From NCBI GenBank assembly GCA_023252195.1, contig JAHEXI010000012.1, positions 1-64,000 on the forward strand: 64,000 bases of DNA, in the 5' to 3' direction. The translations under genes were made by a program, and so were the position numbers. The notes beneath the pieces were generated by a model. That model saw only the letters and a list, made by a program, of their open reading frames with translations, was not told where the DNA came from and ran no database searches. The stretch is from Pseudonocardiales bacterium (GTDB lineage Bacteria; Actinomycetota; Actinomycetes; Mycobacteriales; Pseudonocardiaceae). This document shows, piece by piece, positions 2,617 to 62,546 of this stretch; position 1 is the first letter of the stretch, and every line of letters starts with the position of its first letter.

Positions 2617-2626
2617 AGGAGACATC

Positions 2627-2923: not shown

Positions 2924-2925
2924 CT

Positions 2926-12267: not shown

Positions 12268-12284
12268 CAACGAAGGAGCGATCG

Positions 12285-13634: not shown

Positions 13635-13658
13635 CCGCCCCGACCCCGAGAGAGAGCC

Positions 13659-14444: not shown

Positions 14445-14446
14445 TC

Positions 14447-24215: not shown

Positions 24216-25938
24216 ACCCGATTCCGCGAGTAGCGCAGTGAATTGATCTTCGTCTTGTTTTAGTTGAGCGTTTCGGGTGGTGTGTGGGTTGGTTGCAGGG
24301 TAAGGGCCCGAGTGTCGCCTCGGGTGGCGGGGTTCCGGTGTGTTCGGAGATGTTGGGCCTGGTCAGGGTGTTGCTGGGAGTGCGCGTATGCGGGCGAGGA
24401 CCGTTTCGAGCAGGTGGTATCCCGGTGGTAGTCGCAGGTCGAGTGCACCGGCGTGATGGATCAGGCGGGCTGGCACGCGGATCAACGTGTGCCGCAGGGT
24501 GGTGATCATGGCTTGGCCGTCGCGGACGCCGTGACCGGCCAGTCGCCCGTCGGGTCCGAGGGTGGCGGTGAGCAGGTGTAGCCAGCCGGCGATGCTGACC
24601 GCGAGCAGCGCACCCCACATCCAGGCCCGGTTGACCGCGGGATATCCGGAAGGGAGGTGCCGCATAGCGGCGCCGAGCTTGCTGTCGCGGAAGATGTTCT
24701 CAATCGCGGTGCGGTGCCGGTACCAGAGCTCGGTCGCCGTGGCTTTGTCGGGTGTGGACACATTCAGGTTGGTCACGATGAACGAGTAGCCATACACCGC
24801 GTCGAGGCCGGCCAGGGCCGGGATGGGCAGCGCGCGCTGGTCGGGCCGCAGCGTGCGGCGGCGCCGTGCTCGGGGGTCGTGGGAGACCTGTCCGGTGTTG
24901 ATGTCTAGGCGCACCCTGCGGATCAGCAGCCGGGTCGCGGTCGGCCACCAGGGCGGGCAGTAGGAGGCGACCGCGACCTGCGCGCCGTCCATGTCCAGCG
25001 CGTCGGTCCAATTGGCCTCGGGTACCCCCTGGAGCAGCCGCCACAGGGGGGCGATGCGCTTGGCCCCGATGGCGAACTCGACCCCGGCCAGGTGCGCGGC
25101 GCGGGCCAACTGCCCGGCGAAGTAGCCGGCGTCGGCGCGCAGCCGGATCCGCCCGACCCGCGCTGCGGCCGGCAGCGCGCCCAGCGCCCTTCTCAGCAGC
25201 TCGGGGGCGTGTGACCGGGGGTCGGCGTTGCCGGCCATCAGGTCCGCGGCCAGCACCGTCGCGGTCTGCGCCCAGCTGGCCACAGGCGGGCGCCCACAGC
25301 GTTGCCCCTGGTAGTTGTAGGCCACCCCACGCTTTTTGCGCCCGTAGACCTCGACATCGGTGGTGTCCAGATCGATGGTGACCGTCTCGCACAGCGCCGC
25401 CGCCCGCACCGCTGGCAGCGCCGCGAGCATCGCGGTGTGAATGTCACCGATCCCGGTCTCCACCGCATGCCACTGCCCATCGGACAACCTGCGTGCCAGC
25501 CCGGCCGCGGTGGTCGATCCCAACCCCGCCACCGGCGCCAGCAGCTGCCCAGCGGCATCGGCGCGTTGGCGGTCGAGCCCGACCAGGAAGTCCTCCCCTG
25601 CCAGCTGCGCCGCCGCCATCCCGACCAGCAACTGCCCACCCGACAACCCGCGGTCACGGGTCTTGATCGCCCCGATCGCCGCGTCCAACAGCTTGATCAT
25701 GCCCAGCCGGCTGACCAACTCGGTCACCGCCACCATCCCCGACACCGGGGTCAGCCACGGGTCCGGCGCGCCAATCCGCACCCGCCGCCGCAACCGATGG
25801 ATCTCGCGTACTCTGCCCACCCGATAGGTGTCCTCTCAACCCGCATGATCGTGGCCTGGTAACCGCCATCATCGCAGGTCAGAGCGACGCCTATCGCCAT
25901 CTCACGGCCCGTGTCGGAAACCTACTCGCGGATTCAAG
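24216..25938 (-). mobile_element. Complete IS1380-family insertion sequence (1723 bp)
   Basis: The ends are acccgattccgcgagtag at 24216 and its near inverted copy ctactcgcggattcaag ending at 25938. A 4-bp duplication TCAG flanks it at 24212-24215 and 25939-25942. Length, target duplication size and transposase all fit IS1380. The boundaries are supported by precise restoration of the whiB frame when the element is removed. Confidence 0.85.
24363..25820 (-). CDS. IS1380-family transposase
   Basis: A 485-residue DDE transposase. Visible features: ETVTIDLDTTDVEVYGRKKR (first catalytic Asp), RIRLRADAGYFAGQLARAAH (second Asp in the beta strand), and WYRHRTAIENIFRDSKLGAA with the catalytic Glu. 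The frame is open throughout, so the enzyme may be functional. It lies within the 1723-bp element that splits the whiB gene. Confidence 0.93.
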   Translation of the reverse strand: MGRVREIHRLRRRVRIGAPDPWLTPVSGMVAVTELVSRLGMIKLLDAAIGAIKTRDRGLSGGQLLVGMAAAQLAGEDFLVGLDRQRADAAGQLLAPVAGLGSTTAAGLARRLSDGQWHAVETGIGDIHTAMLAALPAVRAAALCETVTIDLDTTDVEVYGRKKRGVAYNYQGQRCGRPPVASWAQTATVLAADLMAGNADPRSHAPELLRRALGALPAAARVGRIRLRADAGYFAGQLARAAHLAGVEFAIGAKRIAPLWRLLQGVPEANWTDALDMDGAQVAVASYCPPWWPTATRLLIRRVRLDINTGQVSHDPRARRRRTLRPDQRALPIPALAGLDAVYGYSFIVTNLNVSTPDKATATELWYRHRTAIENIFRDSKLGAAMRHLPSGYPAVNRAWMWGALLAVSIAGWLHLLTATLGPDGRLAGHGVRDGQAMITTLRHTLIRVPARLIHHAGALDLRLPPGYHLLETVLARIRALPATP

Positions 25939-44413: not shown

Positions 44414-45907
44414 TTGAAGGTGAACGTTACCGGTTGGTCGAAGGGATTGGACGTCACCGCCGATGGCGAGGGTGTCGTGTCGCACGCTGGGCTGGTCCTG
44501 CTGCGTCAGCTGGCCGACAAGGCAGGGCTGACCGGGGGGCTGTCGGGGGCGCTGGCCTGTTCGCGGTTGCTGATCCATGACCGGGGCCGGGTGATGGCCG
44601 ATCTGGCGTGCGCAATCGCCGATGGCAGCGAGGTGATCAGCGATTTCCGGGTGCTGGCTGATCAGAAGGAGTTGTTTGGCCTGGTGGCGTCGGTGCCCAC
44701 GGTATGGCGGACGCTCAGCGAGGTCGCCGCGGGCGGGCCGGGGACGCTGGCCGGGATCAGCGGGGCGGTCAATGCCGCCCGGCGCCGCGCGTGGGCGGCG
44801 GTCGGGGCCCGCCACGGCGCCCTGCCCGGCGTGCGGATCGCGGACAAGGTACTGGAGGGGGTGCTCTGCATCCGGCTGGATGCCACCGTCACCCCGGCGC
44901 ATTCGGACAAGGAGCTGGCGGAACCGAACTTCAAAGGGTTCGGCCATCACCCCTTGCTGTCCTACTGTGACAATACGGGCGAGCCGCTGGCCGCGATGAT
45001 GCGTCGTGGCGGTGCCGGCTCGAACACCGTGACCGATCACCTCACGGTGCTTCAGGACTCGATCGCCGCGCTGCCGCCGGAGCACCGGCGCCGGCTGATG
45101 GTGACCTGCGACGGTGCCGGGGCCAGCCACGGGCTGCTCGGCCGCCTGGACACCCTCGCCGCCCGGCCCGGGTATCAGCTGACCTACTCGGTCGGCTGGG
45201 AGCTGGGGGCCCGTGAGGCGATCAACCTGGTGCCCAAGGGCGGCTGGCAGGTCGCGATCGATCACCGCGGGGCGGTGCGGGAGCGTCGCGCCGAGGACGC
45301 CTGCCCGGCCCGGTGGTGCGGGCATGCGCGGTGCTGGCGCGAACAAGCGCACGTCACCGAGCTGACCGGGCTGCTGCGCGACGGCCCTGGCGGAGACCAG
45401 CTCGCTGGCTGGCCTGCCAGTATGCGGGTCTTCGCCCGCCGCGAGCGCCCCCACCCGGGTGCCCAGCTGAGCCTGTTCGAGGCCGAAGACGGCTGGCGGT
45501 ATTCCCTGTGGGTGACCAACCTGCCCACCAGCCTGCGGGGCTGGCGGGCCAATCCCGCCTACATCGACGCCGCCCATCGGGTGCATGCCCGGGTCGAGGA
45601 CGGGATCCGCACCGGCAAGGACTGCGGCATCGGCCGGTTTCCCTCGCACGACTTCGCGATCAACTCCGCCTGGCTGGCCGCCGCCCTGATCGCGGCCACC
45701 CTACTGGCCTGGCTGCGGCTGCTGGCCTTGGACGGTGACCTGGCCCGCGCCGAACCCAAGACCCTGCGCTACAAAATCCTGCACGCCGCCGCCCGGCTGG
45801 CACACAGTGGCCGACGGCGCCGACTGAAAATCTCCAGAACCTGGCCCTGGGCCACCGCGATAGCCACCGCCTGGACCCGCCTCGCCGCCCTGCCGCAGGC
45901 CCCATGA
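44414..45907 (+). CDS. IS1380-family transposase (second copy type)
   Basis: About 497 residues from the TTG at 44414, after AGGAGC; the frame is open from 44351. IS1380 features: LACAIADGSEVISDFRVLAD, CIRLDATVTPAHSDKELAEP (catalytic Asp), MVTCDGAGASHGLLGRL (second Asp), YIDAAHRVHARVEDGIRTGK (Glu) and the typical final NSAWLAAALIAATLLAWLRL. A ggtgctcct ... aggagcacc inverted pair lies just upstream of the start. It is only distantly similar to the copy at 24.4 kb. Confidence 0.9.
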   Translation: MKVNVTGWSKGLDVTADGEGVVSHAGLVLLRQLADKAGLTGGLSGALACSRLLIHDRGRVMADLACAIADGSEVISDFRVLADQKELFGLVASVPTVWRTLSEVAAGGPGTLAGISGAVNAARRRAWAAVGARHGALPGVRIADKVLEGVLCIRLDATVTPAHSDKELAEPNFKGFGHHPLLSYCDNTGEPLAAMMRRGGAGSNTVTDHLTVLQDSIAALPPEHRRRLMVTCDGAGASHGLLGRLDTLAARPGYQLTYSVGWELGAREAINLVPKGGWQVAIDHRGAVRERRAEDACPARWCGHARCWREQAHVTELTGLLRDGPGGDQLAGWPASMRVFARRERPHPGAQLSLFEAEDGWRYSLWVTNLPTSLRGWRANPAYIDAAHRVHARVEDGIRTGKDCGIGRFPSHDFAINSAWLAAALIAATLLAWLRLLALDGDLARAEPKTLRYKILHAAARLAHSGRRRRLKISRTWPWATAIATAWTRLAALPQAP

Positions 45908-46956: not shown

Positions 46957-48057
46957 TCATCGGAATACCTCGCTGAGACGGTATGCCAGTGATATCGCTG
47001 TCGGCCAGCCGGCGTCGACAAAGGCATGCAGCACTGAGCGGATTGCCGTCAGCAGGTCGTTGTCGGCGACCATGATGGCGCGGAACTCGGCCAGGTATCG
47101 TTCTATCAGTTTGGTCGTCTCGTCGACTGCCAGCTGGTCGTAGGTGTATTCGTCACCTGTTCCCACGGCCGCGGCGACGAGGCGGAAGGCTTTTGCCGGA
47201 TCGGCCGTGGCGAGGGGGCCGAGGGCCTTGACCAGCGAATGCGTGATCGAGGGATGTTTGAAGCGGGCAAGAACTTCAAGGGCGGCGAACGCCTTTTCGG
47301 CGAAACCTGGCGCTGGAGGGGTGGGGTTGACGCCGCCGTCGGCGTGGGCGCTGGCGGCGAAATAGAGGTTCCGCGCGATCAGATCAGCGATCGTGTAGGC
47401 CGCCCTGGTTCGTTCCTGGGCACCGTTCGCGGTGTCTCGGAGCTCGACCACGGAGGTGATTGCCAGGTTCAGCAGCTCGAAGGCGCGCGTACGCTCGTCG
47501 TCGCGGTTCGCTGGTAGTTCGATCCATGCTCGCAACCGGCTCAGTGTGTGCCAGGCGGTTTGGGTTTCGGCTGGAGCGGACATCCAATTTCGGGTTAGCT
47601 TTGTCGCGAGGGGTGTTCGGTGCCGGATGGTCAGTGAGAGCGCCAGCCCGGTGAAAGCTCCGAGCGGCTCTAGCTGATCAGGTGTGTGTTCGGCCTCGTT
47701 CAGCAGACCCGACCACGGTTCCCGGTCGGCGAGTGTCGCGAGGAGCGCGTCCACATCTGCCGGGCGCTTTTTCGCGAAGGGTGAGAGCCCTTTGAGGAGG
47801 ACCGCCGAGACAAGTAGCTGATTTTCGGTCAAGAGGCGTTCGCGAACGAGCTCGAACGTGGTGTCGTCGTCCGAATTGAGCAGGTGTACGACCTGTGCAA
47901 GGTGTAGCCGGACGACGTCGTCGGCGTCGGTCAGCTTGGCCCGGAGGACGGCCTGGATAGAGGGTGCATACGTCGACGATCGCCAAGCCGGGTGACGCCA
48001 GAGGTCCGTCAGCGTGCTGACGGCGGTTCGCGCGGGTGTCGGGGACCAGGACATCAT
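46957..48057 (-). CDS. Helical-repeat (HEAT-like) protein, partner of the PNP-NTPase
   Basis: 366 residues starting MMSWSPTPARTAVSTLTDLW at an ATG that overlaps the PNP-NTPase stop (ATGA). The protein is helical throughout (SIQAVLRAKLTDADDVVRLH, KAFAALEVLARFKHPSITHS), like HEAT/ARM repeats, and has no catalytic motif. It is the last gene of a three-gene unit. It may be a separated C-terminal sensor or an effector partner of the NTPase. The longer upstream frame (to 48321) shadows the NTPase gene. Confidence 0.65.
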   Translation of the reverse strand: MMSWSPTPARTAVSTLTDLWRHPAWRSSTYAPSIQAVLRAKLTDADDVVRLHLAQVVHLLNSDDDTTFELVRERLLTENQLLVSAVLLKGLSPFAKKRPADVDALLATLADREPWSGLLNEAEHTPDQLEPLGAFTGLALSLTIRHRTPLATKLTRNWMSAPAETQTAWHTLSRLRAWIELPANRDDERTRAFELLNLAITSVVELRDTANGAQERTRAAYTIADLIARNLYFAASAHADGGVNPTPPAPGFAEKAFAALEVLARFKHPSITHSLVKALGPLATADPAKAFRLVAAAVGTGDEYTYDQLAVDETTKLIERYLAEFRAIMVADNDLLTAIRSVLHAFVDAGWPTAISLAYRLSEVFR

Positions 48058-51000
48058 GTGATGGGTCCTTCCTCGTCCTTTGCACCGTCCGATCGGATCG
48101 CTCCGAGAAGCAGCGGCATGATCAGCGCGGCCAGCTCGGAGTCCGGTGCGGGCGGCGAGACCCGGACGACGGCTTCGATTCCTCTGAACACGATTTCGGC
48201 GCCAGGGCCCAGATGGTCGGCGCTGACGATGCCGGTCGCCAGTGCGTGGCGAAGGACCTGTTCGGCGTTGGCCGCCTGTTCTTGTGACGGTGTGGCGGGT
48301 AGCGCGTCGAGAGTGAGCCACAGTGTGTCGAGCGCTTCGCGTTGCCGCTGGTCCGTGAGCTCGGCGTCCTCATCCGTGCCGAGGTACTCCCGTAGAGTCG
48401 TCGGTACGAAGCTTGCCACGGGTCTCTGAGGCTCGGGAATGACAGGGGGACCACCGTTTTCGGACTGCCGGCTGACCCGTTCGCCCAGCGTCGCATCCTG
48501 GATCTTCCCGGGTGCAAGGCATCCGCTCAGCTGATCGAGGAGACGATTGGTGGCGGCGTCCGACGGCGGTGCGAGGAGGTGGGTGGCCGAGAGGATCGCT
48601 CGTTCGAGATCTGCATGTTCGGCATCCGTGAGCAGCGGATCGACTGCCCGGATCAGCGTGCCCGCCGCAGCGCGCGTACCAGAGTGTGCGAACAGCCCGC
48701 CGGCCAGGAGCACCGGAAGGAACGCACGTCCTAGTTCAGCGGGGCGTGACGCCGCAGCGGTCAGGATGAGCCGCCACGCTTCGGGGTGCCGGATGGTGCG
48801 GACCAGTTCTTCGACGATCGCGCCCAGGTCGGTGCTTGCCAGGTCGAGGTCCCGCGAGGCGGCGGCGAATTCCGTCGCGATCTGCTTGGCGACTCCGTGG
48901 CCGGGACCGTACTCAAGATCGACCATGAACATGTCGACCTGCCCACGGACGGACCAAACGGAGATCGGGTAGCCGCCCTGACCCCCATTCAGTTCGCTAC
49001 CGCGGAAACGAAGGGCCTCGGCGAGCACTTCGACGGCGTGGCCGAGGCCCGCAACCGCGATGAAGGCGGACAGCCGTTGCCCGACCTCGTACTTGGCCAT
49101 GTCGACGTCCTGGCGGCGAGTGCTGGTCAGCGCTAGCACCCCTTGAAAGAGGGGAGTGACGTCGTCGCGGTCCTCGTCGAATCGCAGCACCGCGACGAGC
49201 ACATCCCGGGCCAGCTCCGGATCACCGGTTGCGATCGCGTCCACCGCGTCGACGTAGTGGTGGAGATAGTGCGATTCCCAGAGCACCATGATCTCCGGTC
49301 GCAGGGTCTGCCGCATGATGCTCGCATGCGCGGGGTTGATCGCGACCGCGCGAGGCAGGAATCTGGCGACCATGGTGGCCAGCCGTTCGCGCTCGGCCGG
49401 CGCCACGAGTGCGGCGCGCATTAACGCTGCCACGCAGTCGGCCCAGACGGGCGCTGCTCGTGTTCCCGGCAGCATCGTCTGCAGCTTGTCCAGCTGTGCC
49501 AGCAGGCGGTAGGTCTGGTTAACCAGCTGGATCTCGAAGTCATGCGCCACCTGCGTGGCGGCTCTCTCGAGTACCGTCGCCCAGATTTCCAGCCGCTCAC
49601 AAATTCGCAGCCGGACGCCTTCGTCCGCCGCGTCCAGCATCGCGGCGATCCATCCCGCGACGGTTGAAAAGACCGCGGTGTGGCCGGCGGAGAGATCGGT
49701 GAGCCACCGGAGGTCGGCGTCGGCCTCGGCTTCGGAAACGACGACGCGTACCGCGGCAACTCCGGCAAGGCTGTCGCCGTGCCGCACCAACTCTGCTACC
49801 ACCGCAGCGAAGGTGGAGTGGTCATCGTCGACGTGCCAGAGATCGGCCAGGTGAAGATCGATACTCGGCCGGGCGATCAGTACCAGGTTGGGGTCCTGCT
49901 CCAGGCTCGGTACCAGCAGCGACTCGTCACCGTCGGTGAGGATCAGCGCCGCAACGCCGTAGTCGAAGAGGATGTGATGGGAGTAGGCCAGGGACGGTGA
50001 CCCGCTCGCTTTGAGCCGGCCGGGAAGTTCCTGAAGCACTCCATCCTGGACGAGACCGGTTCTCGCGTCCAGAAGCGCGTCGGGTACGGATCGGCTGTTG
50101 GCGCGCAGTGTGCGTTGTTCGACCATGGTGCAGCTGAGCCGTTCCAGGACTCGCAGCCGCGCTTCGCTGCCGGGGTGCTGGGTGACGCGCACCCGCCAGT
50201 ACTTCTGCAGAAGCTCGAGTTGGTCTCGTGCGTCAGCGAGTGATGCTTCACTGACTCCGGTATCCAGCAGTTCGCAGGCCAGGCGGAGATTGAAGGGATT
50301 GAGGATGAGATCAATCAGGTGGTCGCTCGCGTCCGCGATGAGCCTGCCGACGCCAGGATGATCCTTCGCTAGCTTCTTGAGCTCTTCGACGGAGAAGTTC
50401 CCAAGAAGGAAGTGACGAACACCGGGCAGGTCGTTGTCGCGGTGCTCGGGCCGGTCCGACACCGGTGCTCCGGCGAACGCCTGCGTCCAGGCCGAGCTGT
50501 GACGAAGGTCGAAATGCCGCATCGTCGCGATCGTCCGCCACCTGGTGCCACTCAGGTCCCGGATCAGGTTGACCAGCCAGGTGAGCGGCCCGCCCCGGGT
50601 CGCGTCGAGGCCGTCGATCAGCAATGTCGCCCGTGACTCACCCGACCAACCGCGAAAGGCGGCGAGCAGCGGCTTGGTGAGCACGACGTCGTCCCGAATT
50701 GCCCCGGGCTGGGTACCGAGGCTGTCGACGATCAGGAGAAAGACGTCCTCGCCGTTCTCGATCAGGTGGTGGGCCAGACTGCTGAGCACGCCGGACTTAC
50801 CGCAGCCCGGCTCACCGGTCAGGACGAAACTGCCGTCGACCTCGAGGAGGATGTGGAGCTCCTCGCGCTGGACCGCGAGCTTCTCCGGCACACCAGGTAG
50901 AGTCGCGTGCTCGTCCAGGGACAGAAGGTTCGACGCGGTGACCTCGCGTACCGCAGCGGCGTCTTGGCGGGCCGGGTCCGGGATGTCGGCGCCGGCCGGT

Positions 51001-51764
51001 GGCAGGCGGTCGAGCAGTTCGAAGGCGAACGCTGCCGCGTGGCGCGAGGCGACGGGCTGCCAGAGTCTGTCCGCGGCTTCGGTTTTGTCGGTGGGCGGAT
51101 CGGAGATACCGCGCACGACGAGCGCGTCGACTTCCTTGTTGACGTAGGCGCCGTACAGGAACCCGTGCCCTTCCATCTCGACCGCCACGGCATCACCGCA
51201 GTACTCACGCAGAAAGGTAGCGGTCAGCGATTCCTGGTCGGCCACCACCTTGCCTCCAGCGGCGATCGGTTTGACCAGCGCGGCCGGAGTCGTCTCCGGC
51301 GGGGCCGGCCGGATGCGGTGCTGCCACCCATCGGTGCGGGCGACCTGGAGAGCGCGCTGGACCAACCGGTAGCTGGCGGTGGCGGTCTTGATCCGGGGGT
51401 GGTAGCCGGCGGCAGTATCTTTGCCAGCCTCGTAGTCGTAAACGTAGTCGGCGACCACCACGTCACCGAGTCTGACGTCCTTGACGCCGCCGGCCACTCC
51501 GACGAAGAGCACGATCTGCGGACGGAACCGGGAGACGGCGCGTTCGAGGTGGACGCCGGCCTGGGTGTTGCCGGCGCTGGTCTGGGTCAGTACCACGGTC
51601 CAATGGCCGTGGCCGGTGGGGAAGGTGGCGTATTCGTAGAGCGTGCCGCGTTCTTCGCATTGGTGAAACGATCCGGTCAGGTGCTCGCGAACGGCGCGGT
51701 ACTCGACGTCCAGGGCGGTGCAGATCACCACCGTGCCCAGCGGGGTGCCGTCATCGGTATTCAT
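48054..51764 (-). CDS. PNP/nucleosidase-domain STAND NTPase (NLR-like)
   Basis: 1236 residues from the ATG at 51764 (MNTDDGTPLGTVVICTALDV). Residues 10-270 are a PNP_UDP / MTA-SAH nucleosidase domain: LFVGVAGGVKDVRLGDVVVA, VAVEMEGHGFLYGAY, VVRGISDPPTDK, which retain the EMEG and RxxSD catalytic region. Residues about 300-560 form an NTPase with Walker A LTGEPGCGKSG and Walker B TLLIDGLDA. The remaining half is helical. Nucleosidase domains on NLR-like ATPases occur in bacterial anti-phage proteins and fungal NLRs, and related immune PNP effectors cleave ATP. A defence role is inferred. The start overlaps the NUDIX gene by 14 bases. Confidence 0.85.
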   Translation of the reverse strand: MNTDDGTPLGTVVICTALDVEYRAVREHLTGSFHQCEERGTLYEYATFPTGHGHWTVVLTQTSAGNTQAGVHLERAVSRFRPQIVLFVGVAGGVKDVRLGDVVVADYVYDYEAGKDTAAGYHPRIKTATASYRLVQRALQVARTDGWQHRIRPAPPETTPAALVKPIAAGGKVVADQESLTATFLREYCGDAVAVEMEGHGFLYGAYVNKEVDALVVRGISDPPTDKTEAADRLWQPVASRHAAAFAFELLDRLPPAGADIPDPARQDAAAVREVTASNLLSLDEHATLPGVPEKLAVQREELHILLEVDGSFVLTGEPGCGKSGVLSSLAHHLIENGEDVFLLIVDSLGTQPGAIRDDVVLTKPLLAAFRGWSGESRATLLIDGLDATRGGPLTWLVNLIRDLSGTRWRTIATMRHFDLRHSSAWTQAFAGAPVSDRPEHRDNDLPGVRHFLLGNFSVEELKKLAKDHPGVGRLIADASDHLIDLILNPFNLRLACELLDTGVSEASLADARDQLELLQKYWRVRVTQHPGSEARLRVLERLSCTMVEQRTLRANSRSVPDALLDARTGLVQDGVLQELPGRLKASGSPSLAYSHHILFDYGVAALILTDGDESLLVPSLEQDPNLVLIARPSIDLHLADLWHVDDDHSTFAAVVAELVRHGDSLAGVAAVRVVVSEAEADADLRWLTDLSAGHTAVFSTVAGWIAAMLDAADEGVRLRICERLEIWATVLERAATQVAHDFEIQLVNQTYRLLAQLDKLQTMLPGTRAAPVWADCVAALMRAALVAPAERERLATMVARFLPRAVAINPAHASIMRQTLRPEIMVLWESHYLHHYVDAVDAIATGDPELARDVLVAVLRFDEDRDDVTPLFQGVLALTSTRRQDVDMAKYEVGQRLSAFIAVAGLGHAVEVLAEALRFRGSELNGGQGGYPISVWSVRGQVDMFMVDLEYGPGHGVAKQIATEFAAASRDLDLASTDLGAIVEELVRTIRHPEAWRLILTAAASRPAELGRAFLPVLLAGGLFAHSGTRAAAGTLIRAVDPLLTDAEHADLERAILSATHLLAPPSDAATNRLLDQLSGCLAPGKIQDATLGERVSRQSENGGPPVIPEPQRPVASFVPTTLREYLGTDEDAELTDQRQREALDTLWLTLDALPATPSQEQAANAEQVLRHALATGIVSADHLGPGAEIVFRGIEAVVRVSPPAPDSELAALIMPLLLGAIRSDGAKDEEGPIT

Positions 51765-52491
51765 GACCCGTGGCGCCCTTCGTGTGCTGTTCACTGTGTG
51801 GCTCCCGCAGGATGGCGGGGTGCAGCCGGGTCGCGGGACCGGCGCGGTGGAGCGTGGCGGGGCGGCCGCCGGTGCCTGCCGTCCTGCCGCCGGTGGGTAC
51901 CAGGAACCCGGGGGCGCCGGTGACCTTGCGGTGGAAGTTCGACGGGTCGAGTTGGGTTCCCCAGACGATCTCATACACCTCACGCAGCTGGGCAATGGTG
52001 AACTCTGGCGGGCAGAAGGTCGTCGCGAGGGTGGTATGCGACAGCCTGTCGCGAGCGTGCTCGACCGCGTCTGTCAAGAGAAGGTGATGGTCGAACGCGC
52101 GCTGGTCTGGCTCGGCCAGCAGTTGCTCGACGGGTGCCCAGTCCGCGGCACGGGCGTCACCGCCGGCGATAGGCAGCGGTAGGTCGGGCATCAGCGCGAC
52201 GTAGCACACGGACACGACCCGGCCGCGCGGATCACGATCGGGTGCGCCGTAGCTGCGCAGCTGATGGACGTTCAAGTCGGCGGCGTCCAGACCGGTCTCC
52301 TCGGCCAGTTCACGGTGGGCGGCCTGGTCGAGGTCCTCATCGGGTTCGAGGAAACCGCCGGGGAGGGCCAGCCGACCCTGATGCGGACGTTTGGCGCGGA
52401 CGACGACCAGGACATGCAGGCAGCGGTCACGCACGGTCAGAACAGCCAGGTCGACTGCGACGGCGCTGCAGGGCACGTCTGGTCTCGTCAT
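51751..52491 (-). CDS. NUDIX-domain NrtR-like transcriptional regulator
   Basis: 246 residues from ATG 52491. Residues about 10-145 are a NUDIX domain with the G-x5-E-x7-REL-x-EETGL box starting LPGGFLEPDEDL. Residues about 155-225 match the winged-helix tail of NrtR-type regulators (FTIAQLREVYEIVWG, then LDPSNFHRKV). NrtR proteins sense ADP-ribose or related NAD metabolites. It heads the operon with the PNP-NTPase, whose start codon lies within its 3' end. Two GTCA-N3-TGAC repeats lie in its promoter, so autoregulation is likely. Confidence 0.85.
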   Translation of the reverse strand: MTRPDVPCSAVAVDLAVLTVRDRCLHVLVVVRAKRPHQGRLALPGGFLEPDEDLDQAAHRELAEETGLDAADLNVHQLRSYGAPDRDPRGRVVSVCYVALMPDLPLPIAGGDARAADWAPVEQLLAEPDQRAFDHHLLLTDAVEHARDRLSHTTLATTFCPPEFTIAQLREVYEIVWGTQLDPSNFHRKVTGAPGFLVPTGGRTAGTGGRPATLHRAGPATRLHPAILREPHSEQHTKGATGHEYR

Positions 52492-52527: not shown

Positions 52528-52561
52528 AAATACGGTAGGGGCACTACGGTCCAGACTTATG

Positions 52562-54166: not shown

Positions 54167-55060
54167 TCAGTCAGATTTTGCTGATAGGTATGGAATCATG
54201 TGCTGGAGGGTAATAGCAGCGTTGTGGGCGGCTGAGTGTTGGTGATCGTAGGTCTTGGCGTGGTCGGCGAGGTCGGAGATTCCGCGAATGATCATCCAGC
54301 GGGGGTGATCGGGTGGCGGGGTCTCGTGGCAGAATTGAGTGAGGCCGCCGGCTTCCATATCGACGGCGAGGATTTTCTCATTGTAGGCTAGAAGAAATTT
54401 CCGGATCTGGCTTTCGGCGTCCATGATCACGGCATCGCCGGATCCGATGGGCCCGGGCAGTACCCGGAACGGGCCTGCCGGTGACTTGAGCTGTGCTGGG
54501 TCGGGGTAGTCGTTAAAGAACGCGTTGAGGGCGTGGGTGATGGCGGCGGGGGCATGGCGCTCCTCGCCGCGCCGGTGCGCTCCTTCGGGCGTTTCCCGGC
54601 GCAGGTCGTAGTAGACGACCCTGTTTGCGACAACCACATCGCCGATAACGAGATTGCGATTGATGGCACCGCCGATCCCCACCAGAATAAATATGGCGGG
54701 GTTACTGTGTCGCCGGAGGTTCTCCAGGGTGGGCATGATCGACCGTTGGCCCTGCTCGAGCGTGCGCGTCGCGATAAGGTTGACCGTGCCATCGGCTGAC
54801 TCGACGGTTCCGGTGTAGAAGTTCTGCCCGCTCGGCGTTCCTCGGTTCTTTGTGAGTCCGAAGATGTCGATGACAGCCCGTGCCTCGGTGGCTTTGATTG
54901 TGACCAGGCCAATGCTCGGTGATCGCGATGCGGAACGCGCGGCCTGAGACATGGGATGGACGTTGGTGATACCGGCACCCGGTCCGGCAGCCAACTGGCC
55001 GATATTTGTGGTGGCGCCCCGGGTGGCCATGAATCCGGAATTGTGGATTACGTCGTTCAC
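54167..55060 (-). CDS. PNP/MTA-SAH nucleosidase-family protein with N-terminal amyloid-like motif
   Basis: 297 residues; the GTG start overlaps the stop of the upstream membrane-protein gene (GTGA). Residues 5-31 (IHNSGFMATRG, then IGQLAAGPGAGI) align without gaps to the C-terminal motif of that protein. Residues about 50-290 are a nucleoside phosphorylase/nucleosidase domain: LVTIKATEARAVIDIFG, LVGIGGAINRNLVIGDVVVA, ILAVDMEAGGL (EMEG equivalent, here DMEA) and MIIRGISDLAD. The shared motif and co-translation suggest a receptor-effector pair; the nucleosidase would be the effector. Substrate unknown. Confidence 0.8.
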   Translation of the reverse strand: MNDVIHNSGFMATRGATTNIGQLAAGPGAGITNVHPMSQAARSASRSPSIGLVTIKATEARAVIDIFGLTKNRGTPSGQNFYTGTVESADGTVNLIATRTLEQGQRSIMPTLENLRRHSNPAIFILVGIGGAINRNLVIGDVVVANRVVYYDLRRETPEGAHRRGEERHAPAAITHALNAFFNDYPDPAQLKSPAGPFRVLPGPIGSGDAVIMDAESQIRKFLLAYNEKILAVDMEAGGLTQFCHETPPPDHPRWMIIRGISDLADHAKTYDHQHSAAHNAAITLQHMIPYLSAKSD

Positions 55061-56805
55061 GCGCTCGCTCCTTCGGGACCGTTGTTACCGATCCCGTTGT
55101 TGATGATCTGGGCGCTCATTCCTGCGGCCATTTGTTCGACCGTCATTTGACCGCCGCCCATGTTGAGTACCCCGCTGTTGATGATGTTGGTTGCCTGTTT
55201 CTCGAATACTGAGGTGTCCACCCCGTACTCGGTGAGGAAGTCCTTCGTGGCCTTGAGAATCCGCTGCTCGACTATCTTCATGTGGTCATAGATCGTGGTG
55301 CGGTCCAGTTGAGCGTTGTCCCACGCGTCGGCGATCTCCTCGCGCACCGCCACGTTTAGCTCTATCGATCGATGTCCGGTAACGACCGTGCGTTCCTTCT
55401 GCGCCCACCAGGCCCGTCCGAGAACCCGGGGAATCTCAAGCAGCCGCCACAGCCGCCGGAGGTCCTCGGGCACGGCCAGGGCGCAGCGCACTGCCGAGTG
55501 AAGCAGGGCTCCGGTTCCTCGCTCACTGGACCAATCGATCACGTGGTAGTTCTCTGGTGTTCGGGTGAGTGCACAGGTGGCGACATCGAGGCTCAGGCAG
55601 CGGCCCTTGACGCTGACCCGCAGGAGCACAGTGGCCACCAACTCCCCACCGAAGATCGGCACGCTGATCTCCAGGAAGTGATGCCCGGCGTGCCGGTGGT
55701 CGTTGATGATCGTCCAGATCTCGAGCTTTCCCCATCTCCTGCGGAGGAGGTCAGCGTTGGCGGGGAAATCGGCAGCGGCAATGTAGATCCGGTCCCGCAC
55801 CTTCAGCCCCGGGAGATTTTCCGCGCCGGGGTCGGACCCGAGTTCGGTCAACGCGGTACGCAAGGTCTCGACCAGTTTGCGGGCGGGGAACGGGGGCTTG
55901 GTGTATTCACGCTCCGCCAAGCTCCCATCGCCGGGCTTGAGCAGTTGCACCGTCAACGGCGGCAACCAGCGGTTCACCAGCCTACCGCTGCCCACGAAGG
56001 GCGATGGCCTCTCAGAACGCGCCAGCAGATCCAGGGGATCGGCGTCGTCACTCCGATGCGGAGGACGGTGATAGACGACGCAAGTGTAATCTTGCTGTTC
56101 GTTAATGATCTTCTCTCGGCGAGTCAGTGTCACCGGCCGCAGCGTCTCTGGGTGGGCGACAGCTGAGAGCAGACGCTGGCGTACCACCCCGGCAACGATC
56201 GCACAGCAGACGAGAACAGAGCTGATCACGGTCGCCTGCCAAGCTGCGGAGGCAAGCGGAACCTGGAGAAGGAAGGACACCGCAAGCGGGCACAGCGCCG
56301 CGATCAGGCAACAGGCGAGCATCGCCTTGAGAAGTCGCTTACGGCTCTTCAGATTCGGCTCGGACAAACGTCGACGCGGCACGTCGACTCGGAAGCCCCA
56401 GTGTTTGGACGCCTCTTCGACGTGCCGCCGGAACACTTCGGGAAACTCCTGGGCGATCTTGCGGAGCAGGAGGCAGAGCACGACTGCGCAACAGACGATC
56501 ACAACGGCCAACAGGCCGTCGATCGCCAGGCCGGCTGCCAGAATGACCAGCATCGCGAACAGGTGCCCGCTGTCCAGCAGCCAGGACCGCCAGGCATTCC
56601 GGATGACCGGCACGAGATCGAATCCATAGGACGGCGCGATCCGCTTCCGTGCCTCGTTGTGAACCTTCCGGATGATCAGATCACGGAACGACGGGTCGAC
56701 GTACACACCTGCGCACAGGTGGCGCGTTGCCGCCGAATCGATGGGCAGGTGCGTGTCATGGCTAGCGTGTGCTTGCCGGATGGGTGTGACCAGCGCGTCG
56801 CTCAT
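55057..56805 (-). CDS. Four-TM membrane protein with C-terminal amyloid-like motif
   Basis: 582 residues. Two TM pairs, about 78-115 (FAMLVILAAGLAIDGLLAVV) and about 155-207 (LLKAMLACCLIAALCPLAVS), are followed by a cytoplasmic-looking alpha/beta region of about 300 residues (VRDRIYIAAADFPANADLLR, HHFLEISVPIFGGELVATVL). A helical stretch then leads to the C-terminal motif IINSGVLNMGGGQ ... EQMAAGMSAQI at 541-567. I do not recognise the middle domain. The arrangement suggests a membrane sensor that passes a signal to the nucleosidase encoded next. A -35/-10 pair lies upstream, overlapped by operator-like repeats. Confidence 0.75.
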   Translation of the reverse strand: MSDALVTPIRQAHASHDTHLPIDSAATRHLCAGVYVDPSFRDLIIRKVHNEARKRIAPSYGFDLVPVIRNAWRSWLLDSGHLFAMLVILAAGLAIDGLLAVVIVCCAVVLCLLLRKIAQEFPEVFRRHVEEASKHWGFRVDVPRRRLSEPNLKSRKRLLKAMLACCLIAALCPLAVSFLLQVPLASAAWQATVISSVLVCCAIVAGVVRQRLLSAVAHPETLRPVTLTRREKIINEQQDYTCVVYHRPPHRSDDADPLDLLARSERPSPFVGSGRLVNRWLPPLTVQLLKPGDGSLAEREYTKPPFPARKLVETLRTALTELGSDPGAENLPGLKVRDRIYIAAADFPANADLLRRRWGKLEIWTIINDHRHAGHHFLEISVPIFGGELVATVLLRVSVKGRCLSLDVATCALTRTPENYHVIDWSSERGTGALLHSAVRCALAVPEDLRRLWRLLEIPRVLGRAWWAQKERTVVTGHRSIELNVAVREEIADAWDNAQLDRTTIYDHMKIVEQRILKATKDFLTEYGVDTSVFEKQATNIINSGVLNMGGGQMTVEQMAAGMSAQIINNGIGNNGPEGASA

Positions 56806-56830
56806 GGTGGCCCCCTCACGAGAATTTAAG

Positions 56831-56841
56831 GTCAGGTCGAC
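56831..56841. promoter_or_regulatory. Operator-like repeat GTCA-GGT-CGAC (one mismatch)
   Basis: It differs from GTCA-N3-TGAC by one base and overlaps the -10 end of the minus-strand promoter. A longer dyad, ttaaggtc ... gactttaa, surrounds it (56826-56846). Confidence 0.5.
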
Positions 56842-56869
56842 TTTAATGGGCTCTAGAGGTTAGAGTCAA
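56841..56869 (-). promoter_or_regulatory. Promoter of the membrane-protein / nucleosidase operon
   Basis: On the minus strand: TTGACT (56869-56864), a 17-base spacer, TTAAAG (56846-56841), then about 35 bases to the ATG at 56805. Operator-like repeats overlap both boxes, consistent with repression. Confidence 0.55.
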
Positions 56870-56875
56870 GGTGAC
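56865..56875. promoter_or_regulatory. Operator-like inverted repeat GTCA-AGG-TGAC
   Basis: A perfect GTCA-N3-TGAC dyad over the -35 box of the minus-strand operon and immediately upstream of the Shine-Dalgarno of the NUDIX gene on the + strand. Same core as the sites at 52515 and 52562. Confidence 0.62.
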
Positions 56876-56892
56876 CTATAGGAGGTGATCCG

Positions 56893-57579
56893 GTGTCTGT
56901 GTCTGTGACGGTGGACTTGGTGATCTTGACCGTGCGCGATGACGAGCTGCAGGTCCTGGTCGTGGAGCGAGGAAACCCACCGTTCGAAGGGCAGCTCGCT
57001 CTACCCGGCGGATACCTGCGGGGCCGGGAGACCCTCGACGAGGCCGCGGTGCGCGAACTCCACGAGGAGACCGGCGTGGACGGGATCCGGCTGCATCTTG
57101 AGCAGCTGCGGACCTATAGCGATCCGGCACGGGACCCGCGAGGCCGAGTGATCACCGCCGCATACCTCGCACTCGGGCCCGATCTGCCGACACCAGTGGC
57201 CGGGACGGATGCACGCGAGGCGTACTGGGTACCAGTCAAGACCGCCATGCAGGACGGTGCATTGGCGTTCGATCACGTCCAGATCCTGCGCGACGGTGTG
57301 GAGCGGGCCCGCTCGAAGCTCGAATACACCACCATCGCGATGATGTTCTGCACCGAGCCGTTCACCGTCGGCGATCTGCGACGGGTGTACGAAGTCATCT
57401 GGGGAATGCCGCTCGACCCGAGCAATTTCCGCCGCAAGATCACCCGTGCCGACGGATCCCTCGAACCAACCGGAGACCGGCGCGTCCACACGACAGGCCG
57501 CCCCGCAGCACTGTACCGCCGGGGAGCAGCGAGCCTGCTCATGCCGCCGTTCCTACGAACCCACGAGTACGCGTCATAG
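56893..57579 (+). CDS. Second NUDIX-domain NrtR-like regulator
   Basis: 228 residues; the GTG start follows TAGGAGGTGAT. NUDIX domain with LALPGGYLRGRETLDEAAVR then ELHEETGV (complete NUDIX box). The C-terminal winged helix reads FTVGDLRRVYEVIWGMPLDP then SNFRRKITRADG. It is closely related along its length to the NUDIX regulator at 51.8-52.5 kb. It is divergent from the membrane/nucleosidase operon and separated from it by only 87 bases that contain the two operator-like repeats, so it is the obvious candidate regulator. Confidence 0.87.
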   Translation: MSVSVTVDLVILTVRDDELQVLVVERGNPPFEGQLALPGGYLRGRETLDEAAVRELHEETGVDGIRLHLEQLRTYSDPARDPRGRVITAAYLALGPDLPTPVAGTDAREAYWVPVKTAMQDGALAFDHVQILRDGVERARSKLEYTTIAMMFCTEPFTVGDLRRVYEVIWGMPLDPSNFRRKITRADGSLEPTGDRRVHTTGRPAALYRRGAASLLMPPFLRTHEYAS

Positions 57580-57918: not shown

Positions 57919-58677
57919 GTGAATTGGAGTGAGGTTTCTGCGCCGATCATCGCAGATCTGCGCAACGGCCAGCACCGGGAGGCATATACAATATTCTCCG
58001 TCGGGTTTGCGCTAACCTTGCTGGGCTTGTTCGGGGTCGCGTCCCAGCCAGTGCTTCTCAGCGGAATTCTGATCGCCGCTACCTTCTTGGTCTTCCAAAC
58101 TACCATCCGGCTTGACGGCGCCGCGGGGACTCTAGAATCATTCCTTAAAAGCCGCAACGCCCTGGGCGCATTCAACACCATCATACCCGACGGGGGCGAA
58201 CTGTGGGTCTACGGGCCTACCGCGGTCAACGTGCTCGTCAATGCGCCTGATATCAAGGCCAAGGTTCTCAGCAAGGGCGGCCGCGTCCGCATAGTCGTGC
58301 AGGACCCCTCTTCAGACGCCATGCGCCACACCAAGAACCAGCTTGACGATACTTTAGACTTTGACCATACCCTTGCCTCATCGATTGCCACACTGCGTAG
58401 GATGCGCACCTGGGGAGACTGCGATTATCGCTTGCTCGCGTGCAACCCCGGGTTCAGTCTCGTCGTGATCAACCCGAACAAACCTGACGGGTTCCTTATC
58501 CTGGAGATGCACGGCTTCAGCGACGATACCATCACTGGCCGCATGCATATAAGGATCAGCCGGACAGATTCGTTGCACTGGTTCGACTACTGGGCCAGCC
58601 GATTCAACAATTTGTGGCAACAGGGTAAAAGTGACAATATATTGACTGAGTCAAGGCGCTCTGCACAACGAAGCTGA
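57919..58677 (+). CDS. Membrane-anchored protein with PLD-like fold
   Basis: 252 residues from GTG 57919, with AAAGGAA upstream. Two TM segments at residues about 24-62 (FSVGFALTLLGLFGVASQPV, LLSGILIAATFLVF). The soluble part follows the plan of phospholipase-D-like domains: GGELWVYGPTAVNVLVN, AKVLSKGGRVRIVVQDPSS, and a final DSLHWFDYWASRFNNLWQQ. The HxK catalytic pair of true PLD enzymes is not evident, so it may be a non-enzymatic or divergent member. It lies downstream of the NUDIX gene and may belong to the same defence island. Confidence 0.6.
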   Translation: MNWSEVSAPIIADLRNGQHREAYTIFSVGFALTLLGLFGVASQPVLLSGILIAATFLVFQTTIRLDGAAGTLESFLKSRNALGAFNTIIPDGGELWVYGPTAVNVLVNAPDIKAKVLSKGGRVRIVVQDPSSDAMRHTKNQLDDTLDFDHTLASSIATLRRMRTWGDCDYRLLACNPGFSLVVINPNKPDGFLILEMHGFSDDTITGRMHIRISRTDSLHWFDYWASRFNNLWQQGKSDNILTESRRSAQRS

Positions 58678-58691
58678 AACGACAGGTTCTG

Positions 58692-59511
58692 ATTGGCGCC
58701 GTTTCGTTGGTGGATCAACTCTACTCGGGCAGGCTGGGCGGATGCGCCGTCGCGAGGTCCGGACACCACTGCCCAGCTCCAGCTTCGCGGGTTCCGGTTC
58801 CCTCCGGAGATGATCACTGTGGCCGTCAATGGTACCTGCGCTATGCGCTCTCGTACCGGGATGTCGAGGAGCTGCTGGCAGAGCGCGGCATCACCGTCGA
58901 TCACGTGACCGTGTTCCAGTGGGTTCAACGGCTCACGCCACTGCTCATCGACGTAGCCCGGCCCTGCCGGCACGCTCCGGGAGATCGCTGGTTCGTCGAC
59001 GAAACCTACGTCAAGATCGCTGGGCGGTCGGTCTACCTGTACCGCGCGATCGACCAGTTCGGGCATGTCATCGACGTGCTGGTCTCCGAGAAGCGGGATC
59101 TGGCAGCCACCCGCCGATTCTTCAGCCAGGCGCTGACCACCACCACGCTCACCCCGGTCGAGGTCATCACCGACCAGGCGGCGGTCTACCCGCACCGTTC
59201 TCGAGAAGTTAGCTCCAGGCGCCTGGCACCACACCGAGCCCTACGCCAACAACCGGATCGAAGCCGACCACGGCCGCTTGAAATCCCGGCTGCGACCGAT
59301 GCGCGGGCTCAAACAGCTTTGCTGCGCACGGGTGATCACCACCGGGCACGCGTTCATCCAGAACATCCGCCGCGGGCACTACGAACTCGGGATCGAAGAA
59401 CCGCTGAACTTGCGGGTCCTGGCTGCCTTCACCGAGCTGACCCAGGCGATCTGATCAGATCACGGAACAGATCCAGGCTGCCACCGCTTCGCGCAACGCA
59501 ACAGCACCCTT
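58692..59511 (+). pseudogene. Second IS6-family element, transposase frameshifted twice
   Basis: Ends ggcgccgtttcgttgg at 58692 and caacgcaacagcaccc at about 59511 form an imperfect inverted pair of IS6 type. The transposase reads FRFPPEMITVAV in one frame, then after a one-base loss near 58830 WYLRYALSYRDVEELLAERG through DETYVKIAGRSVYLYRAID. After one extra base near 59193 it continues APGAWHHTEPYANNRIEADH to FTELTQAI. Both catalytic Asp and the Glu are present but the gene cannot be read through. Confidence 0.85.
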
Positions 59512-59692
59512 GACCCAACTCCGGCTCGCGAGGACACCGAAACGGTCCGAGGTGTGCACTTCGTACGAGGTCGTAGTCGGCGTTTGCCGACACTGCGAGT
59601 GGAACCGATCCGTCGTACATACCGTCCGAACCGTCGCAGCTATCCGAAGAAAAAAAGGACACGGCAACTGACCGAGTTGTGCACACCAAGCG

Positions 59693-61136: not shown

Positions 61137-62546
61137 TCAGGTCGGCGCCGGCAGCGCCGTGACCGCTCGCCAGGCGTTAATCACGTCGTTGGTCCAGGGC
61201 CAGTCCGCGCGGAGGTGCAGCCATCGTTTGCGTTGCCCGCGGGTCAGTCGGGCGGGCAGGTGCAGCAGCCGGTAGCGGAGCAGTTTCGGGGCTGCGTCGC
61301 GGAGTTCACCGGCGGGGAGGGCGAGGTAGCGGAAGCAGGCCAGCAGGTTCGCGGCCAGGGCGACGATCTGGGTCCAGGCCACGTTGATCGACCAGTGCCG
61401 GGAGGGCCACCGGTTCAGGCCCAGGTCCTTGGCTTGTTTGACGTCGTTCTCCACGTGGACGTGCGAGCGGTGCCGCGCGTCGAGCCAGGCGAGCTGCCCG
61501 ACTGTGGTGTTGGTGGCGATGAGCTGGTAGCGGCGCCCGAGCTCGCGTTCGCGCCCGGTGGCCCGCTTGCGGTAGCGGGGGTGCAGCGGCTCGTCGCGCA
61601 CGATGACTCGCAGCCCCGGGATCTTCTCCTGCCACGAGCCGAGATCGAGCAGGCCGGTCAGATCCGCGACGAACGTGTCGGCGGTGATGTCGCCGTTCTG
61701 GTCGATCCCGGGAGTGCGCGCCCCGGCGGGCAGCCGCGCAATCGCGTCCATCTCGGTGTCGGTGCACGACCAACCCACCGAGAACTCCCAGTTCCGCCCC
61801 CGGACCCCGCCGCCAGCGGCGATGTGTTCGAGCAGGTCGTGGGAGAACCTGGCACCGTCCAGACGCACCAACATCCGGCGCCGGTAGCGGCCTGGCAACC
61901 GCGAGGTCGCCAGGTCCAGCAGGGCAATGTTGTCGGTGGCGCAGTTGGAGGTGGCGTTGCCGGGGCGGGGGTCGATCGCCAGCACGTCGTCGGTGTTGTC
62001 GCAGGTGGCCAGGTTGGGGCAGAACCCGATCCCACCCTTATAGGTGGCCCGCGCGTTCTCCTTCTCCGAGCTGGCGAACACGATCGAGGCGTCCAGATCC
62101 ACCACGGTGATCCCCCTCAGCTCCCGCCCGGCCACCCGCAGCCAGGGGAACCCTTCCGGGCGGTTGGCCAGCAATCTCCACCAGTGCCGCCGGAAGCGGG
62201 CCACGGCGGTGTTGATCCGGATCAGCTGGAGATCGCCGACCTCTGACAATGCCCGCCACACCGTTGGGTTCGACGGCACCGGCCCGATCACCGGCCCGAG
62301 GTGGCGCAGGCCCTGGAAGTCGCTGATCGCCTCCCCGCCCAGGATCTGCGCCACAGCCAGGTCGATCAGCACTTGGCCCCGGTCATAGACCGGGTCGAAC
62401 CTGCACCGCGCCATCGCCGCCGACAGCCCGGCGCGCAGCCCGCTCCGCTCAGCCAACAGCCGCACCGGCAGCGCCCCGGCGAACCCGACCAGGCGATCAT
62501 CATCGCCGACGAGTTCCAGCCGGTCAGCCCATGAAGTATCTTGCAC
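61137..62546 (-). CDS. IS1380-family transposase (third copy)
   Basis: 469 residues in one open frame: IDLAVAQILGGEAISDFQGL, TVVDLDASIVFASSEKENAR (Asp), GFCPNLATCDNTDDVLAIDP, MLVRLDGARFSHDLLEHIAA (Asp), HRSHVHVENDVKQAKDLGLN (Glu), and INVAWTQIVALAANLLACFR. Upstream, aggtgcacct sequences at 62551 and 62601 may be end repeats. It is closer in plan to the copy at 44.4 kb than to the one at 24.4 kb. It may have truncated the TcA-like gene. Confidence 0.9.
   Translation of the reverse strand: MQDTSWADRLELVGDDDRLVGFAGALPVRLLAERSGLRAGLSAAMARCRFDPVYDRGQVLIDLAVAQILGGEAISDFQGLRHLGPVIGPVPSNPTVWRALSEVGDLQLIRINTAVARFRRHWWRLLANRPEGFPWLRVAGRELRGITVVDLDASIVFASSEKENARATYKGGIGFCPNLATCDNTDDVLAIDPRPGNATSNCATDNIALLDLATSRLPGRYRRRMLVRLDGARFSHDLLEHIAAGGGVRGRNWEFSVGWSCTDTEMDAIARLPAGARTPGIDQNGDITADTFVADLTGLLDLGSWQEKIPGLRVIVRDEPLHPRYRKRATGRERELGRRYQLIATNTTVGQLAWLDARHRSHVHVENDVKQAKDLGLNRWPSRHWSINVAWTQIVALAANLLACFRYLALPAGELRDAAPKLLRYRLLHLPARLTRGQRKRWLHLRADWPWTNDVINAWRAVTALPAPT

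Follow-up and report, generated by a model that had tools for sequence, protein, structure and literature searches.

Matching terminal motifs join a four-transmembrane receptor-like protein to a nucleosidase and other exchanged partners in a probable actinomycete signaling family

What does it mean when a membrane protein ends, and the nucleosidase encoded just behind it begins, with the same short Gly/Asn-rich motif? The question is raised by a two-gene locus within positions 1 to 64,000 of contig JAHEXI010000012.1 from a Pseudonocardiales bacterium, the whole stretch that we analyzed and refer to as the window. An earlier note on this DNA had likened the two genes to bacterial amyloid signaling pairs, and this interpretation as a whole is partly supported by our study. 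We propose that the locus belongs to a large actinomycete family of membrane-receptor/output pairs in which homotypic, probably amyloid-like assembly of the tails activates a nucleotide-destroying effector, a reading that we hold to be somewhat probable. The two genes and their motifs are as follows:

55057..56805, minus strand: membrane receptor-like protein of 582 amino acids (open reading frame [ORF], AlphaFold2 [AF2] model, hydropathy)
56161..56616, minus strand: four transmembrane (TM) helices, receptor residues 64-215 (hydropathy and structure model)
55105..55185, minus strand: receptor C-terminal tail motif, residues 541-567 (tail comparison, alignment, and the model confidence score pLDDT)
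54167..55060, minus strand: PNP/MTAN-fold nucleosidase of 297 amino acids, translationally coupled (4-nucleotide [nt] overlap)
54968..55048, minus strand: nucleosidase N-terminal tail motif, residues 5-31 (alignment, low pLDDT)

The AF2 model of the receptor (mean pLDDT, 87.4) consists of an N-terminal segment, four TM helices (residues 64-94, 98-135, 150-180, and 184-215), an alpha+beta domain, and a disordered C-terminal tail, and hydropathy agrees with the model on the four helices described in the earlier note. From residue 550 the pLDDT is mostly below 50, the first motif residues ending a predicted helix (532-544), and residues 1 to 50 of the nucleosidase are modeled in blocks at pLDDT 44 to 66, both tails thus having the low model confidence of disordered segments. 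The Pfam scan gave no family above the cut-off for the receptor and no NTPase domain in it or in the four relatives scanned, in agreement with the previous view that a membrane protein here stands in for an NLR ATPase. Translational coupling was borne out as well, the GTG start codon of the PNP gene overlapping the receptor stop by 4 nt on the minus strand. Finally, receptor residues 541-567 (IINSGVLNMGGGQMTVEQMAAGMSAQI) and nucleosidase residues 5-31 (IHNSGFMATRGATTNIGQLAAGPGAGI) indeed align without gaps, with 11 of 27 positions identical.

The receptor has no second copy in its own genome at an E value of ≤1, the only match being itself. Relatives were found in 14 of 100 genomes at an E value of ≤0.001, and a 14-row receptor profile matched at least 60 of 394 genomes of the class at an E value of ≤1e-10 (the window genome being counted in both), the latter figure being a lower bound because only three candidates per genome were scored. 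Among 10 draft genomes of the same genus (87 to 98% complete), no close relative was found, and a single genome has a distant one. Two sets of loci were assembled. Set 1 comprises 89 loci, i.e., the window and 88 fetched neighborhoods (L021-L034 and L065-L138), reduced to 84 as L121 gave no candidate and the motif-less paralogues L135-L138 were left out beforehand. Membrane genes were taken only if the profile match reached position 520 of 571, and their last 75 residues were compared with the N termini of downstream ORFs, the partner being whichever start scored highest between -45 and +500 nt from the receptor stop; as a control for this choice, the same best-start rule was applied to foreign loci. 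Set 2 comprises 80 named loci from a contig scan with PNP-type receptors; it overlaps set 1 in several genomes and is biased toward PNP because its query was PNP-type.

The earlier note had set loss of the motif in close homologues beforehand as a refutation; we found it kept, the receptor tail matching its own downstream N terminus with a score of ≥40 in 77 of the 84 loci, window included. It is because of this family-wide match, and not of the window pair alone, that we accept the pairing of the tails. By the same rule, foreign downstream regions reached ≥40 in 371 of 2,100 comparisons (mean, 33.2, versus 71.6 for own regions), and the own region beat the foreign one in 1,997 of 2,100. When partners were shuffled among loci, the observed sum of 6,017 was never attained in 100,000 trials (mean, 2,621; standard deviation, 98); the true partner ranks best of 84 for 44 loci and in the top three for 67. 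The motif thus diverges strongly between loci and agrees inside each locus, as illustrated by the pairs NSGVLNLGGTNDFTNTTFGDQAQVQNHGS/NSGIVNAGGTNSFTNTTFGDQAQVQNHGS (L080), IHIEGPVTGNVFMGDENRVGPV/ISIGGGVVGNTFIGDGNRVGDV (L025), and NYGNQVFGTQNADGMNFGPGSTTV/NHGNQVFGTQNADGMNFGPGSTTV (L120). Moreover, the pairing is specific within single cells' genomes: where two or three systems coexist (16 genomes), the own tail wins 44 of 44 comparisons (mean, 73.7 versus 26.4), the closest being 36 versus 35 for the partnerless L127. The motif is rich in Asn (16.1% versus 2.0%) and Gly (15.5% versus 7.5%) and poor in Leu (2.0% versus 10.8%) and Arg (2.9% versus 9.8%).

A search for gene pairs with the motif at the same termini, suggested in the earlier note, was equally positive in set 2, whose hosts include Actinophytocola (49% identical), Nonomuraea, Actinomadura, Nocardiopsis, Streptomyces, Lentzea, Phytohabitans, and others. 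The receptor gene is present in 79 of these 80 loci, with PNP directly downstream in 72; all 72 have a tail score of ≥40 and 61 have the 4-nt overlap. Small partners with a matching tail occur at the non-PNP loci L212, L216, and L217 (scores of 86, 72, and 66, respectively), no matching partner was found at L214 and L218, L201 may be broken, and L215 scores 54 outside the tail. On the Streptomyces plasmid CP106748.1, a NUDIX gene accompanies the receptor and nucleosidase genes, whose products have tails matching at 64; its annotation gives the receptor as three hypothetical proteins and the nucleosidase as hypothetical. Across 74 nonidentical PNP loci, similarity of the C-terminal motifs correlates with that of the N-terminal motifs once the resemblance of the two bodies is taken out (partial r, 0.33; permutation maximum, 0.185; 0 of 2,000), identical tails having been dropped from this analysis and from the codon analysis below. 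The main tail search looked only at the receptor C terminus versus the partner N terminus; at 15 loci where both ends of the neighbors were compared, the matches of adjacent partners were N-terminal.

What lies behind the receptor is not always a nucleosidase. PNP is a minority partner, found with the tail in 12 of the 84 loci, window included; most receptor relatives are followed by a small helical protein and a few by an EAD1 adaptor. The commonest partner has 104 to 147 amino acids and consists of the tail and a helical domain; among 14 scanned, DUF5955 was matched at the cut-off in two (L024 and L070), below it in five, and not at all in seven, and a double motif, judged by eye, is present in the small partner at seven loci. 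The EAD1 domain (PF19955; E values of 8.4e-15 to 4.5e-12) follows the tail in 5 of the 84 loci, the window not among them. No caspase was found among the other partners scanned, which are PNP, EAD1, or small proteins. A role of EAD1 adaptors in linking effectors with conflict systems has been proposed (PMC7159879). In a receptor-body tree of 90 rows, built by a quick method without the split genes of L023 and L133 and with 8 of the 72 set 2 PNP loci, nine set 1 PNP loci group with these eight (17 rows; support, 96), and the PNP loci L117, L120, and L128 form another group (support, 100) on a different main branch. The latter three carry a second PNP subfamily (PNPb) resembling the PNP of a PNP-NTPase protein encoded elsewhere in the window. 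The output behind a constant receptor has thus been exchanged, PNP having apparently been recruited twice.

The window nucleosidase matches PNP_UDP_1 in Pfam (1.5e-19), both this domain and the MTAN fold being present, and its nearest solved relatives by fold are methylthioadenosine/S-adenosylhomocysteine (MTA/SAH) nucleosidases. By phmmer alignment, E59, E236, and D263 pair with the catalytic Glu, the Met-Glu glutamate, and the Asp of MTA/SAH nucleosidases (E12, E174, and D197 in the Escherichia coli enzyme). These residues are invariant in 46 sequences, and also in 13 sequences spanning both PNP subfamilies, so that the catalytic residues are intact. Of the DMEA and RGISD motifs singled out in the earlier note, Met-Glu and RG-x-SD are kept across both subfamilies, and DMEA as such is not, reading EMEG in the second. 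The best PADLOC model for the protein is a PN-superfamily effector.

The PNP loci, moreover, come with a regulator, as had been anticipated from the NUDIX gene of the window:

56893..57579, plus strand: NrtR-type regulator, divergent, with NUDIX and NrtR winged-helix domains (Pfam; conserved near PNP loci)
56830..56842, strand not applicable: operator-like inverted repeat GGTC-N5-GACT, extended TTAAGGTC/GACTTTAA (pattern search)
56864..56876, strand not applicable: second operator-like inverted repeat AGTC-N5-GACC (pattern search)

The divergent regulator matches PF00293 (4.7e-18) and PF21906 (2.1e-15). In set 1, a homologue is encoded close to the receptor at 11 of 12 PNP loci and at 0 of 76 other loci in the fetched stretches (these 76, used for the operator counts as well, include the motif-less paralogues L135-L138); in set 2, 66 of 72 PNP loci have one at a distance of at most 3 kb. 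The inverted repeat upstream of the receptor, of typical form AAAGGTC-N5-GACTTAA, was found as a loose pattern in 55 of these 66 PNP and NUDIX loci, 1 of 633 control stretches, and 0 of 76 receptors without PNP, and as the bare core RGTC-N5-GACY in 59 of 66, 22 of 633, and 4 of 76, respectively. L100 keeps the pattern with no NUDIX gene nearby. In the window, where two copies start at 56830 and 56864, the core also occurs at 12319, possibly by chance, and at 52561, upstream of a second NUDIX gene adjoining the PNP-NTPase protein, which suggests one regulator type for both PNP systems. The window regulator shows the features of NrtR (NUDIX domain and NrtR winged helix, with palindromic operator-like repeats upstream of the receptor), and the repeats are its putative sites.

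We propose a model in which the constant four-TM protein, most probably the receptor, has a disordered Gly/Asn-rich tail at its C terminus and the next gene supplies an output protein starting with the same tail motif. (i) A trigger at the membrane would bring receptor tails together; (ii) the clustered tails would assemble homotypically into an ordered structure, most probably a beta-arch amyloid like those of the fungal HET-s, PP, and PUASM and the bacterial BASS motifs; (iii) this assembly would template the same conformation in the partner tail, so that the partner is clustered and activated; (iv) the nucleosidase would then hydrolyze a purine nucleotide or nucleoside, possibly ATP by analogy with PNP immune effectors; and (v) the loss of purine nucleotides would starve the cell or the invading phage, growth arrest or death stopping phage spread. 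The divergently encoded NrtR-type NUDIX repressor would hold transcription down through one or two operators in the shared promoter. Of this scheme, the pairing of the tails, its specificity, the exchange of outputs, the association with regulator and operator, and the fold and catalytic residues of the enzyme are supported by sequence, and the receptor role, the polymer nature, the signal direction, the substrate, repression by NUDIX, and a function in defense or cell death are inferred. Homotypic templated assembly is favored because the membrane part is constant, the output is exchanged, the Gly/Asn tails are nearly identical, the pairing is genome specific, and the motif occurs in tandem copies in some partners. 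It is tempting to go further and to see in the mutually orthogonal homotypic tails private channels through which a constant four-TM receptor, present in many actinomycetes, addresses exchangeable outputs (two separately recruited PNP subfamilies, EAD1 adaptors, and small helical proteins), these channels being insulated from one another in one cell; we advance this extension tentatively, giving it slightly less than an even chance. If true, prion-like templating in bacteria would not be confined to NLRs, and a cell could hold several insulated channels.

A number of observations weigh against this model. The window pair is among the weakest: its local score of 48 was reached by 22 of 20,000 composition shuffles (~0.001), and the window receptor tail scores 51 against two foreign PNPs and 48 against its own, the significance of this pair alone being moderate. 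In set 1, no match reaches 40 at 7 of 84 loci: no partner was found for L026, L030, L108, and L127, and L073, L083, and L107 score only 36, with a motif-like N terminus visible. In set 2, PNP is not directly downstream in 7 of 79 loci. When PNP loci of very similar body are compared, the own tail wins only 58 to 62% of the time, and it ranks first in 24 of 74, as would be the case if close relatives share a tail; phylogeny is not fully removed from the tail correlations. Four of the 12 set 1 PNP loci (L079 and all three PNPb loci) lack the loose operator pattern, and the cytosolic domain of the receptor gave no significant fold match. Finally, homotypic binding without polymerization would leave the same sequence pattern.

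This last point leads to the most serious alternative, in which the tails form a docking pair or tether: the nucleosidase or adaptor would be kept at the membrane by the membrane protein, inactive or localized, until a signal leads to its release or orientation. Disordered tails that fold upon binding are common, and translational coupling and adjacency, with the 4-nt overlap of most set 2 PNP loci, would suit a stoichiometric complex. Nevertheless, the motifs on the two sides are the same, not complementary, and the tandem copies in seven partners, together with an N/G-rich and charge-poor composition, fit homotypic beta assembly better, which makes a mere tether unlikely in our view. Less plausible still is the inverse assignment, in which the membrane protein is the executor, a pore or membrane disruptor like BELL or HeLo, and the partner with the N-terminal motif is a sensor or a second effector. 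The protein is membrane embedded, and in fungal and BASS pairs, as described in PMC7889193 and PMC9815663, the C-terminal motif marks the effector side. However, it is the receptor, with a conserved cytosolic domain of ~300 residues, that stays constant and the partner that is exchanged, and partners such as PNP with its catalytic residues (12 of 84) or the EAD1 adaptor (5 of 84) look like outputs.

Could the locus simply be a metabolic operon, with an MTA/SAH-type nucleosidase and a membrane protein under NAD-metabolism control by NrtR? The fold and nearest solved relatives of the enzyme would agree with this, as would the known role of NrtR regulators in NAD metabolism, but the patchy distribution, the transposases nearby (the nearest at 58707-59513), the copy on a plasmid, the replacement of the enzyme by adaptors at other loci, and the best PADLOC model all speak for something else, and we regard such an operon as improbable. 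The resemblance of the tails might also be a functionless by-product of duplication or gene conversion across overlapping gene ends. At identical residues, 15 pairs scoring above 100 share more codons than expected (288 observed versus 202; ratio, 1.42), which points to recent DNA copying at some loci, although the contrast with equally similar between-locus pairs (1.27) rests on little because only five of these exist; pairs at 48 to 60 also show a small excess (1.23 versus 1.09). By contrast, in the 105 pairs scoring 60 to 100 the ratio (1.06 to 1.08) does not exceed that between loci (1.13 to 1.15), and the match is kept with nonhomologous partners (PNP, EAD1, and small helical proteins) and over deep divergence of both bodies. 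A few pairs may hence be homogenized by DNA copying, most matches being kept as protein, and the by-product explanation is largely refuted.

How, then, does the proposed homotypic tail assembly behind a membrane receptor relate to known systems? BASS consist of NLR and BELL gene pairs with many motif families and are found, like the present pairs, in filamentous actinobacteria, according to the account of Dyrka et al. (2020) in PMC7889193. As there, adjacent genes share a short terminal motif that covaries, one side being the receptor and the other the effector. Unlike the BASS receptor, an NLR with NB-ARC or NACHT, the present one has four TM helices and no detected NTPase domain; the motif order is reversed (receptor C terminus and partner N terminus, versus receptor N terminus and effector C terminus); and the partners are PNP, EAD1, or small helical proteins, with NUDIX control in PNP loci. 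The fungal PUASM motif is shared by an NLR and a PNP_UDP effector, and its peptides were shown experimentally to form amyloid (PMC9815663). The coupling of a PNP-superfamily effector to a receptor by a common motif is alike, here as judged from sequence, whereas PUASM is described as fungal, with a NACHT NLR receptor, the motif at the effector C terminus, and another consensus. Altogether, the pair would work like a BASS or fungal amyloid pair, yet fails two of their defining features, i.e., the receptor NTPase and the motif order.

Detocs is a three-gene system with the two-component-like DtcA/DtcB. Neither Detocs/CBASS-type genes nor DtcA/DtcB-like proteins were found among the window neighbors scanned by Pfam and PADLOC, not every ORF being scanned and no search being aimed at DtcA/DtcB. 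PNP immune effectors that cleave ATP are reported in Detocs, CBASS, and others (Rousset et al., 2023, via PMC10952713 and PMC11249213); the present family likewise uses a PNP-superfamily domain as output module, with PADLOC PN-superfamily matches, and differs in that the window nucleosidase partners a tail-bearing membrane protein. System 4, a set of actinobacterial membrane-associated EACC1 and caspase pairs with EAD coupling (Kaur et al., 2020, PMC7159879), is similarly a two-gene membrane-associated conflict system in which variable effectors are linked to a constant core by means of EAD1 adaptors. EACC1, however, is described with one TM helix and a caspase partner, whereas here we find four TM helices, tail motifs, and EAD1 as one partner among several. 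Repressors of the NrtR type, for which ADP-ribose is the reported ligand, are also part of other conflict systems (PMC9503650); the window regulator resembles them in joining NUDIX and a winged helix beside a conflict-type operon and differs in adjoining a receptor-nucleosidase pair.

Our literature searches, whose reach did not extend to the original BASS paper, returned no description of such membrane-receptor tail pairs. Known amyloid pairs came from screens starting at NLR or executor architectures, a bias noted in the review (PMC7889193). In this family of membrane receptors the shared-motif rule holds too, with paralogous pairs that look insulated in some genomes, and the receptor-nucleosidase pairs would be to bacteria what the nucleosidase amyloid pairs are to fungi. 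The natural sequence series make templating specificity, two-sided coevolution, and modular output swapping directly testable.

Some further observations concern the family and its possible additional components. In four genomes, L135-L138 hold a receptor-like paralogue without tail motif or matched partner, which may be an ancestral or housekeeping form, and additional genomes of the same family gave weak profile matches of this kind. At several non-PNP loci (L021, L022, L025, and L026), a small TM-rich protein of ~180 to 230 amino acids is encoded upstream of the receptor and is a possible further component; those of L021 and L026 gave no meaningful Pfam match. The tail of the orphan receptor L026 matches the C terminus of a 252-amino-acid protein elsewhere in its genome (L245:841-1599, genome G025) with a score of 62 (0 of 5,000 shuffles), the genome-wide E value being only 0.485. 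This protein resembles a nucleotide cyclase by eye, with no match in Pfam, and its C-terminal motif hints at a link to BASS. The window carries one more candidate:

57919..58677, plus strand: possible fourth component with TM segments and a domain giving a subthreshold DUF5919 match (Pfam)

DUF5919 was matched at an E value of 0.1 in the window and 0.054 in L117 and was not found in L082. A TM gene family accompanies PNP loci (8 of 12 in set 1 and 48 of 72 in set 2), the window gene not being among the matches; BLASTP of this gene with L082 gave no match.

Other features lie elsewhere in the window. A second PNP system, at 46957-52491, lies behind its own NrtR-type NUDIX gene and consists of a PNP fused to a P-loop NTPase-like protein, which matches PADLOC candidate PDC-M54A (6.6e-96), its AAA/NACHT matches in Pfam being below the cut-off. 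The next ORF (46957-48057) matches the C-terminal part of the same profile (3.2e-32), and the spread of the profile over two ORFs indicates that the PNP-NTPase gene is split or broken in the window. Positions 199-17941 resemble a contractile injection system cluster, with tube protein, baseplate hub, PAAR, and gp25 domains in 4 of 6 proteins scanned. All four transposases scanned (24366-25820, 44420-45904, 58707-59510, and 61140-62465) belong to DDE families, and further transposase-like ORFs seen by eye between 20.7 and 34.6 kb are in keeping with a mobile region. Among the neighbors of the PNP-type locus L080:984-4373, matches to a type I methyltransferase and to PADLOC candidate PDC-M02B suggest a defense neighborhood.

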